Source: a virus. Taken from it: a stretch of DNA of 20,007 bases. The stretch covers positions 1 through 20,007 of IMG/VR virus record IMGVR_UViG_3300031857_001770; one strand, written 5' to 3'. Position numbers and translations under genes: made by a program. How positions within the stretch are numbered: position 1 is the stretch's first letter; each line of letters begins with the position of its first letter. This document shows, piece after piece, positions 1 through 1,403 of this stretch. The notes under the pieces are model-generated. The model saw nothing but the letters and a program-made list of their open reading frames with translations, had not been told where the DNA came from and searched no databases.

Positions 1-79
1 ATGTGGTCATTCATTATTTAGAATCATTACAAATTAACATAGGGACTTGCGTATCTCATTTTTATTTTGTTTTTTTTAC

Positions 80-167
80 AAGTTAAGTTACTTGATTAGT
101 TAACTTAATCAACTTTCAAGTTAACTCAAGTTAGTAGTTAGTCAACTCTTAACTTAACCAACTAACT
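80..167. repeat. Dense AGTTA/TAACT repeat field
   Basis: Ten copies of one pentamer lie within 87 bp: AGTTA on the plus strand at 81, 86, 98, 119, 129 and 136, and its complement TAACT at 101, 122, 150 and 163. Two of them overlap into the perfect palindrome AGTTAACT at 98-105 and 119-126, exactly 21 bp (two helical turns) apart. The first is embedded in a longer dyad, TTGATTA (92-98) with TAATCAA (106-112). The pattern resembles multi-site operators or iterons, and its role is unknown. Confidence 0.7.
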
Positions 168-234
168 TAAAGAAAAAGAAACTAAACAAAGAAAAAGAAT
201 ACAATCTTTGATTTGCGGGCTTCAAATACCTCAA

Positions 235-302
235 GGTATAGAACTATACCCTTTCGCATATAAAGTCGCTTAAAACGGCTCTAATGTATCTTAAAGGGTA
301 TA
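235..302 (-). terminator. Overlapping inverted repeats after the spanin gene
   Basis: Directly after the spanin stop, TATACCCTTT (302-293 on the coding strand) can pair with AAAGGGTATA (254-245) across a 38-nt loop, a perfect 10-bp match. The second arm also overlaps AAAGGGTATAG, which can pair with CTATACC (241-235) in a perfect 7-bp stem of GGTATAG/CTATACC with a 2-nt centre. Only one can form at a time. There is no T-run directly after, so termination by a simple hairpin is uncertain. Confidence 0.5.
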
Positions 303-303
303 A

Positions 304-699
304 TTACTCCAATAGTTTATCTATCCACTTCTTTACGAAGTACGCAGCGACCAAAACAAGGGCAAGCATCGTAAGCCCACCTTCGAGAGTCCAACCCCTT
401 TGCTTCTTCTCCTTCGTTAGAATCTTGGTCTGTGTGACTCGGATGGTATCGGGCAAGCAGGTTGCCTTAACGAATACCTTTCGGTCTATGTACTGCATTT
501 GAAGACGCACCTTGTCTTGGTAGATGGTCGTGTCCTTGTAGAGTTCCAGAGTGTCGGTTAGGTACTTTGTCTTGGTGACAATCACCGTATCCCTTACAAT
601 CACACTCTGAAGGACGGGTTTCACAGTAGCGCAACTGCTAACTACCGCAAGAGTCGCAGTCAGCAGGATTGTCCACATTGCAAGTCGGTTGTTGAGCAT
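304..699 (-). CDS. Putative unimolecular spanin (lipoprotein with C-terminal membrane helix)
   Basis: A 131-residue protein. The N-terminus has a lipoprotein signal: basic start (MLNNR), hydrophobic core (MWTILLTATLAVV) and lipobox VSSC with Cys23. The middle (24-106) is polar and strand-rich (VIVRDTVIVTKTKYLTDTLE, YKDTTIYQDKVRLQMQYIDR). Residues 107-122 (GGLTMLALVLVAAYFV) form a membrane helix with a positive KKWIDK tail. An outer-membrane lipid anchor plus an inner-membrane C-terminal helix is the layout of u-spanins such as phage T1 gp11, which fuse inner and outer membranes at the end of lysis. It follows the amidase by 24 nt, the expected place. The homology itself is not checked. Confidence 0.75.
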   Translation of the reverse strand: MLNNRLAMWTILLTATLAVVSSCATVKPVLQSVIVRDTVIVTKTKYLTDTLELYKDTTIYQDKVRLQMQYIDRKVFVKATCLPDTIRVTQTKILTKEKKQRGWTLEGGLTMLALVLVAAYFVKKWIDKLLE

Positions 700-723
700 T
701 TTCTAAATCGTTGATGAAGTCCT

Positions 724-1143
724 CTAAAGAAGCCAATGGAATTTGGTTTTGACGTTGAACGAAGGGCAAGCCTTTGCAGCAAACTCGTTGTGACCGTGTA
801 GGGTCATTTCTCCGTGTGCTGCTCGTAATGCCTCTATCAAATTAACCATCGCTACCTCTTGCGCTTCGTTTAAGGTGTCCTTCGCTTTCATCTTGGAATC
901 ACACCCACCAACGTAGACCACGCCTATGGAGTCGGCATTGTGACCGGTTGTATGTGCGCCTACCTGCTCAATGGGTCTACCCTCGTGTACCGAGCCATCC
1001 AAGTAAATGACGTAATGGTAGCCGATGTCCTTCCACCCTCTGTCCTTGACGTGCCAGTTGCGGATGGTGTCAACGCTAACGTGGCGGCCTTCTGGCGTAG
1101 CGGTGCAATGCAAAATGATTCGGGAGAGTTTACGCTTGGTCAC
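724..1143 (-). CDS. N-acetylmuramoyl-L-alanine amidase, T7-lysozyme-like endolysin
   Basis: A 139-residue Amidase_2/PGRP-fold protein. Zinc ligands fit T7 lysozyme: H12 (RIILHCTATP), H118 (TLHGHNEF) and C126 (AAKACPSFNV), with H118 to C126 eight residues apart as in T7 (H122, C130). Y42 in IGYHYVIYLDG and K124 two before C126 match the catalytic Tyr and Lys. It cuts the MurNAc-L-Ala bond of peptidoglycan during lysis. No signal peptide is seen, so it needs a holin for export, in keeping with the two membrane proteins upstream. The start is GTG at 1143; no in-frame ATG lies between the preceding stop and this codon. Confidence 0.93.
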   Translation of the reverse strand: MTKRKLSRIILHCTATPEGRHVSVDTIRNWHVKDRGWKDIGYHYVIYLDGSVHEGRPIEQVGAHTTGHNADSIGVVYVGGCDSKMKAKDTLNEAQEVAMVNLIEALRAAHGEMTLHGHNEFAAKACPSFNVKTKFHWLL

Positions 1144-1192
1144 GTTTTTAATATCAAGATTTGTAATTTTTACACATTATGCGCATTTTGCA

Positions 1193-1271
1193 TAGTGCCT
1201 TTAATTGCACTAAAGTGAAACTTCTTGATGCTTTAATCGGACATTATCCGAATTAGTGCGCCTTAATGCAC
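1193..1271. repeat. Two GTGC-N8-GCAC dyads in the gap before the amidase
   Basis: The gap 1144-1274 has two imperfect copies of one dyad. TAGTGC (1193-1198) and GCACTA (1207-1212) form a perfect 6-bp dyad with an 8-nt centre. GTGC (1256-1259) and GCAC (1268-1271) form a 4-bp dyad with the same 8-nt centre. Their centres are 61 bp apart. Two smaller inverted repeats lie in the same gap (TCGGA/TCCGA near 1238-1252 and TATGC/GCATA near 1178-1194). They may be operators, hairpins or processing sites. Confidence 0.45.
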
Positions 1272-1274
1272 ATT

Positions 1275-1403
1275 TTAACGACCTTGCGACTTGTAGGGCT
1301 TGGAGTAGTTCTTACTCGCTTTATTGGCAGATGCACTCTTGGAATGCTTGCCTCGCTTCTTGCTCTTACTTATCCTTTGGCTTATCGCCTGTTGCTTCGC
1401 CAT
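1275..1403 (-). CDS. Tiny, highly basic 42-residue protein
   Basis: A short frame from ATG 1403 to TAA 1275, overlapping the 3' end of the second holin-like gene by 38 nt in the +1 frame. The product is MAKQQAISQRISKSKKRGKH then SKSASANKASKNYSKPYKSQ and GR: 14 Lys/Arg, no acidic residue, one hydrophobic-poor chain. The leader CCTAAAG before the ATG is A-rich like other genes here. I recall Lys-rich peptides with a similar KPYKxQGR end next to lysis genes in related phages, but cannot check this. It may bind nucleic acid or membrane phospholipid. The short length means it could be chance. Confidence 0.5.
   Translation of the reverse strand: MAKQQAISQRISKSKKRGKHSKSASANKASKNYSKPYKSQGR

Follow-up and report, generated by a model that had tools for sequence, protein, structure and literature searches.

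Features at the late/early boundary

The window analysed here is the whole of a viral fragment of 20,007 bases, with its genes on the minus strand; relatives reached through its last late (lysis) gene extend past the window end. Its terminase is found at 17.3–18.4 kb and is followed by structural genes, an amidase and a small lysis-type gene. The features of the boundary region, in the direction of transcription, are these:

724–1143, minus strand: N-acetylmuramoyl-L-alanine amidase (endolysin); phrog_822 3e-54, Pfam Amidase_2 1e-13
304–699, minus strand: final late (lysis) gene; its small lipoprotein/membrane-like product resembles a spanin in position alone
168–202, minus strand: pyrimidine-rich tract, adjoining the field on its upstream side in the direction of transcription
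80–167, no strand assigned: AGTTA/TAACT field, a presumed multi-site protein-binding array of half-sites (from sequence, shuffles and conservation in relatives)
140–147: third site, AGTCAACT, which is AGTTGACT on the minus strand, within the best-kept core AAGTTAAGAGTTGACTAACTACTAACT (minus-strand consensus)
119–126, no strand assigned: second AGTTAACT palindrome, 21 bp from the first
98–105, no strand assigned: first AGTTAACT palindrome, enclosed by a 7-bp dyad
58–79, minus strand: A-rich tract, separating the field from the presumed promoter
28–57 (approximate bounds), minus strand: presumed early promoter, by comparison with relatives
1–11, minus strand: start of the early operon, a conserved 39-aa ORF (MNDHIY...) cut by the window end

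The product of 304–699 has no match in PHROG or Pfam. Read in the direction of transcription, the order is lysis gene, pyrimidine tract, field, A-rich tract, promoter-like sequence and early operon, the name 'early' being one that we infer from gene content. A first-pass annotation had placed the field beyond the late operon, which is correct as far as it goes, but the early operon follows the field directly. Given that it always has the last of the late (lysis) genes on one side and the early-operon promoter on the other, the field belongs to the upstream control region of the early, or replication, operon.

The early operon is complete in one relative (L186), where it comprises the 39-aa ORF and genes for a nucleotide-kinase-like protein, a RusA-like resolvase, an SSB-like protein (so named from its sequence; databases gave no match), a primase/helicase homologue (phrog_18375, 5e-36), a DnaA-domain-IV-like protein and a sigma-like protein. 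The 39-aa ORF (MNDHIYIYWDDVPL...; window 1–11, minus strand, before L186:6705) overlaps the nucleotide-kinase-like gene out of frame, and its start is also kept in a sister lineage described below.

Clustering of the pentamers

Counting both strands, AGTTA starts at positions 81, 86, 98, 101, 119, 122, 129, 136, 150 and 163: 10 copies in 87 bp, from a total of 41 in the whole 20-kb window. AGTTAACT is found in the window only at 98–105 and 119–126, and reading the sequence places the first copy within the dyad TTGATTA (92–98) / TAATCAA (106–112). The ten pentamers, the two palindromes 21 bp apart and the 7-bp dyad of the first-pass annotation were thus all recovered. The third site, AGTCAACT, extends the exact 21-bp step (98/119/140).

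The window total of 41 is what base composition predicts, so that the unusual feature is the clustering alone. This lies far above chance: across 300 dinucleotide shuffles of the window no 88-bp stretch had more than 4 pentamers, against 10 observed, and shuffling the AT-rich surroundings (60–219) 2000 times gave a maximum of 7, reached once. Pairs of palindromes spaced by 21 bp arose in none of 5000 local shuffles, against 2 observed, in a test devised after the spacing had been seen. A functionless chance cluster in AT-rich DNA could draw on the fact that such DNA favours AGTTA-type pentamers, and on the count of the commonest pentamer (any pentamer), which is not significant under local composition. 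Against it stand the shuffles of AGTTA itself and the maintenance of position, core and flanks in 84 distinct regions, with a diverged array in the sister lineage; we consider chance scarcely credible.

Conservation and spacing in relatives

Within the main lineage the position of the field is kept in 84 distinct intergenic sequences. The best-kept blocks among them are AAGTTAAGAGTTGACTAACTACTAACT, AGTTGATTAAGTTAAG, TTAACTTG, the A-tract and the promoter; in the stretches that separate them the field varies by cassettes and duplications (for example in L235). The pyrimidine tract beside the field, CTTTTTCTTTGTTTAGTTTCTTTTTCTTT, is kept in most relatives, though not in all. In the sister lineage a diverged field occupies the same place and is built of AAGTTA, AAGTCA and AAGTAA half-sites (AAGTNA); here identity to the main lineage is about 50–68% for the lysis gene, 76–83% for the helicase and 44–53% for the DnaA-domain-IV-like protein. 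The first-pass annotation had named the absence of conservation among close relatives as an outcome that would count against its reading; the 84 sequences and the diverged sister field show the opposite.

The commonest exact spacings between palindromes across relatives are 59, 21, 42 and 38 bp, of which 59 and 38 bp are roughly half-turn offsets. The proposal that several protein molecules sit on one face of the DNA suits the variant in the window. As a general rule, however, helical phasing fails at spacings of 59, 38 and 17 bp; because neither the number nor the spacing of sites is kept, the one-face arrangement is not general. A period of ~8.4 bp was seen in the AGTT/AACT spacings and is not claimed, the related sequences being non-independent. 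By sequence comparison, then, what is conserved is the position, the flanking tracts and the half-sites, while site number and spacing vary.

The field within whole genomes

Ten relatives of 28.7–32.1 kb were compared over their whole genomes. In each of the ten the field is single: it holds 6–10 pentamers per 100 bp, whereas no other place exceeds 4. Several copies of the site therefore cluster at one place in the genome, as initiator sites do in an iteron origin. Equal AGTTA density in many other intergenic regions, which the first-pass annotation had also named as counting against its reading, was not seen. The field also coincides with the G+C minimum of the genome in 10 of 10 relatives (150- and 250-bp windows), which gives it the adjacent AT-rich region of an iteron origin, with unwinding a prediction.

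Cumulative GC skew, which the first-pass annotation had proposed as a check, shows no switch at the field, its minimum being about 9–18 kb off, and so lends no support to an origin there. DnaA boxes (TTWTNCACA) number zero in the fields of the ten genomes, the nearest being at about −500 or −980.

By inspection, the major genes of one relative (G003) all lie on one strand, and neither an integrase nor a repressor was recognised in it; no ParA/ParB-like gene was recognised either. Some contigs have overlapping ends, as in circular or terminally redundant genomes. The G003 contig also carries two related tail-fibre-like genes (L245:91-1059; L246, record 28608-29546), each followed by a copy of a MIEEVIYIS gene; the fibre gene may have been duplicated, or assembly may have produced this where the contig ends.

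These data bear on the suggestion that the field serves in attachment, partition or packaging (pac/cos). Such sites are known to carry repeat clusters of similar size, and several contigs, including the window, end near the field. The attachment and partition variants, both raised by the first-pass annotation, have no support: neither an integrase nor a ParA/B-like gene was recognised, and where an attachment site would lead one to expect prophage forms, a relative of the terminase was confirmed in none of the genomes of 84,980 bacterial and archaeal species (one genome each). As to packaging, the field is far from the terminase genes and mapped contig ends fall at many places along the genome; both left and right ends (21 and 16) occur near the field, and their excess there is uninterpretable because nearby genes had served to select the loci. 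We judge a role of this kind very improbable.

Other arrays in deeper relatives

Some deeper relatives, among them L116, L131, L139 and L146, were reached through the amidase. The late/early boundaries of deeper relatives carry a variety of arrays. L101 and L105 have a TAACTTAAG field at the boundary, with a helicase of about 50% and a DnaA-domain-IV-like protein of 24–29% identity. In each of L116 and L131 there are three direct repeats of 16 bp (CAACACCCACTAAA), and L146 has 16-bp repeats with AAGTTACT; these iteron-like direct repeats lie at L116:2771-2818, L131:7680-7731 and L146:4982-5083. Stretches rich in CTAGT or AGTA are found at the boundary in L139 and L162. An apparent AT-rich palindrome of ~50 bp (TTTTATTTATTTATATATATCCCTAAAGGGATATATATAAATAAATAAAA in L102 and L106) lies at the boundary of L102, L103, L106 and L107, past the gene that follows the amidase. 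No array is present in the boundary gap examined of L155 and L157. A lineage-specific repeat array ahead of the replication genes thus seems to be a recurrent arrangement, with the look of iteron origins and of operators, and is not universal.

A candidate binding protein

The leading, unproven candidate for the protein that binds the field is a 139-aa DnaA-domain-IV-like protein encoded at L186:9671-10090, its likeness to DnaA being suggested by sequence and structure comparison. Of the 12 members aligned, 11 match Pfam Bac_DnaA_C (best 8e-7), the score of the first member being under the curated cut-off. In a profile search of solved structures (PDB), DnaA DNA-binding domains came top but were weak (E 0.034). 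An AlphaFold model (mean pLDDT 84) resembles DnaA domain IV with DNA (3pvp_B, probability 0.97, E 0.16; 1j1v_A, 0.82), with no match of the model to structures at E 0.001. A search of the phage collection with the protein gave nothing. One member weakly matches phrog_323, a 'D5-like transcriptional regulator' (E 0.034).

The gene is found in each of the three groups whose fields are of the AGTTA/AAGTNA type, and divergence of the field parallels that of the protein, although both may merely follow phylogeny. Its presumed recognition segment is DnaA-like (DHSS), yet the field is unlike the DnaA box. No copy of the gene was found in the stretches searched of L116, L131, L139, L146, L155, L157 and L162; the case of L146, which has the AAGTTACT repeats without a copy detected in the stretch searched, counts against this protein as the binder.

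The sigma-like 178-aa protein is an unlikely binder, for the field stays the same in genomes where this protein is 31% identical. The gene itself (L186:10217-10753) exists in two forms of 31% identity when compared with G002 and G007, although the genomes are otherwise close, which suggests allele swapping.

The field and the early promoter

In most relatives the predicted promoter reads TTGACA-N17-TAATTT/TAATAT; the window has ATGAGA at the −35 position, and a sigma-70 scan of the window did not call the promoter at 28–57. The distance from the edge of the field to the predicted −35 position is nearly fixed in relatives at ~22 bp, with the A-tract between.

Sites at a near-constant distance from a predicted promoter are what an operator would have. 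The field may therefore be purely a transcriptional operator or enhancer of the early promoter, the origin lying elsewhere: a phage regulator (the DnaA-domain-IV-like protein or another) or a host protein would bind upstream of the −35 and activate or repress. That domain-IV-like HTHs can serve as plain transcription regulators (the weak phrog_323 match) fits such a role, as does a GC skew that gives no sign of an origin. Some 10 sites over ~90 bp, in contrast, exceed the needs of an ordinary operator, and the genome-wide G+C minimum and the iterons that some deeper relatives have at the same place fit an origin as well. We regard pure operator function as a real possibility that falls well short of probable.

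Predicted folding points to a further rival. A field acting as single-stranded DNA or RNA – as a cruciform or a hairpin cluster, for example in a single-strand initiation site or a late 3′ UTR – would be in keeping with a predicted minus-strand fold of −17.1 kcal/mol (shuffles −8.8±1.9, z −4.4) and a mean z of about −2.4 across 73 distinct fields. By inspection, however, the predicted folds differ among the 73 variants and have no common architecture, and foldability without a shared fold is expected when inverted binding sites create it. An Rfam match (MIR6135) is spurious, being far under the gathering score. A structural role appears quite improbable.

Discussion

The best-supported reading is that the field, placed in the region that controls the early/replication operon, acts as a multi-site binding array. 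The first-pass proposal of a multi-site operator or iteron-type origin gains from its uniqueness in each genome and its maintenance in 84 sequences and the sister lineage. Going further, we put at about an even chance that it functions as an iteron-like replication origin that probably tunes the early promoter as well. Helicase, RusA-like and SSB-like genes follow the field, and for the initiator there is a candidate only. Points against an origin are the missing skew switch, the relatives without an array (L155 and L157) and the irregular spacing.

A mechanism can be proposed from these comparisons. In a phage of ~30 kb with genes on one strand, the field would sit in the sole control region between late and early operons. 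A phage DNA-binding protein – the leading candidate being the 139-aa protein, encoded a few genes downstream – may read AAGT(T/N)A-type half-sites, single or palindromic (AGTTAACT, AGTTGACT), and load the array cooperatively. The array lies where the DNA of the genome is least stable, flanked by the A-rich tract and promoter on one side and the pyrimidine tract on the other, and loading would most likely open this DNA. Opened DNA could then admit the phage-encoded DnaB-like helicase, as at an iteron-type origin, while the loaded array would probably tune the adjacent early promoter as well. A more specific version – that a short DnaA-domain-IV-like protein lacking AAA+ reads a fast-reshuffling AAGTNA/AGTTAACT array and recruits the helicase, array and reader co-diverging – is a speculation that we think unlikely to hold in full.

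Plasmid iteron origins have repeats upstream of the rep gene, near AT-rich DNA. The field is similarly located, directly upstream of the replication operon and beside AT-rich DNA, and plasmid-like 16-bp direct iterons are present in some deeper relatives (L116, L131 and L146), to which true direct iterons are limited. The window differs in having short palindromes and half-sites on both strands rather than direct repeats, and no Rep-type initiator was recognised here. Because direct repeats at regular spacing are missing – the sites occur on both strands and their spacings are irregular in relatives – and origin activity is a prediction, we do not file the field as a proven iteron origin.

Bacterial oriC contains DnaA boxes, TTATCCACA. 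The possible binder of the field likewise has a DnaA-domain-IV-like HTH, but is far too short for the AAA+ domain of DnaA, and the sites are AGTTAACT/AAGTNA rather than TTATCCACA, with no DnaA-box match in the field.

The origin of lambdoid phages consists of O-protein iterons and an AT-rich region, and in lambda the O gene itself contains the iterons (PMC7466680). The field resembles it in having several initiator-type sites by an AT-rich tract, tied to phage replication genes. It differs in being intergenic, upstream of an early promoter and irregularly spaced among relatives; no O-like initiator was recognised here, the candidate being the DnaA-domain-IV-like protein.

The field thus adds a new case, from uncultured freshwater Bacteroidota-type phages, to a known kind of element. 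The terminase is below 60% identity to all GenBank phages compared (best 43%), the helicase reaches at most 32%, and the DNA of window positions 1–1300 matched known phages in the lysozyme gene only; the titles and abstracts of a small open-licence set of literature hold no description of the element. The finding locates the probable master control region of uncultured freshwater phages that are common in metagenomes and that showed no close relative among GenBank phages. Should the field prove to be an origin, these phages would offer a natural series of related arrays in which the core is kept while number and spacing are shuffled and, with a small candidate reader protein, would make site recognition and its evolution directly testable.
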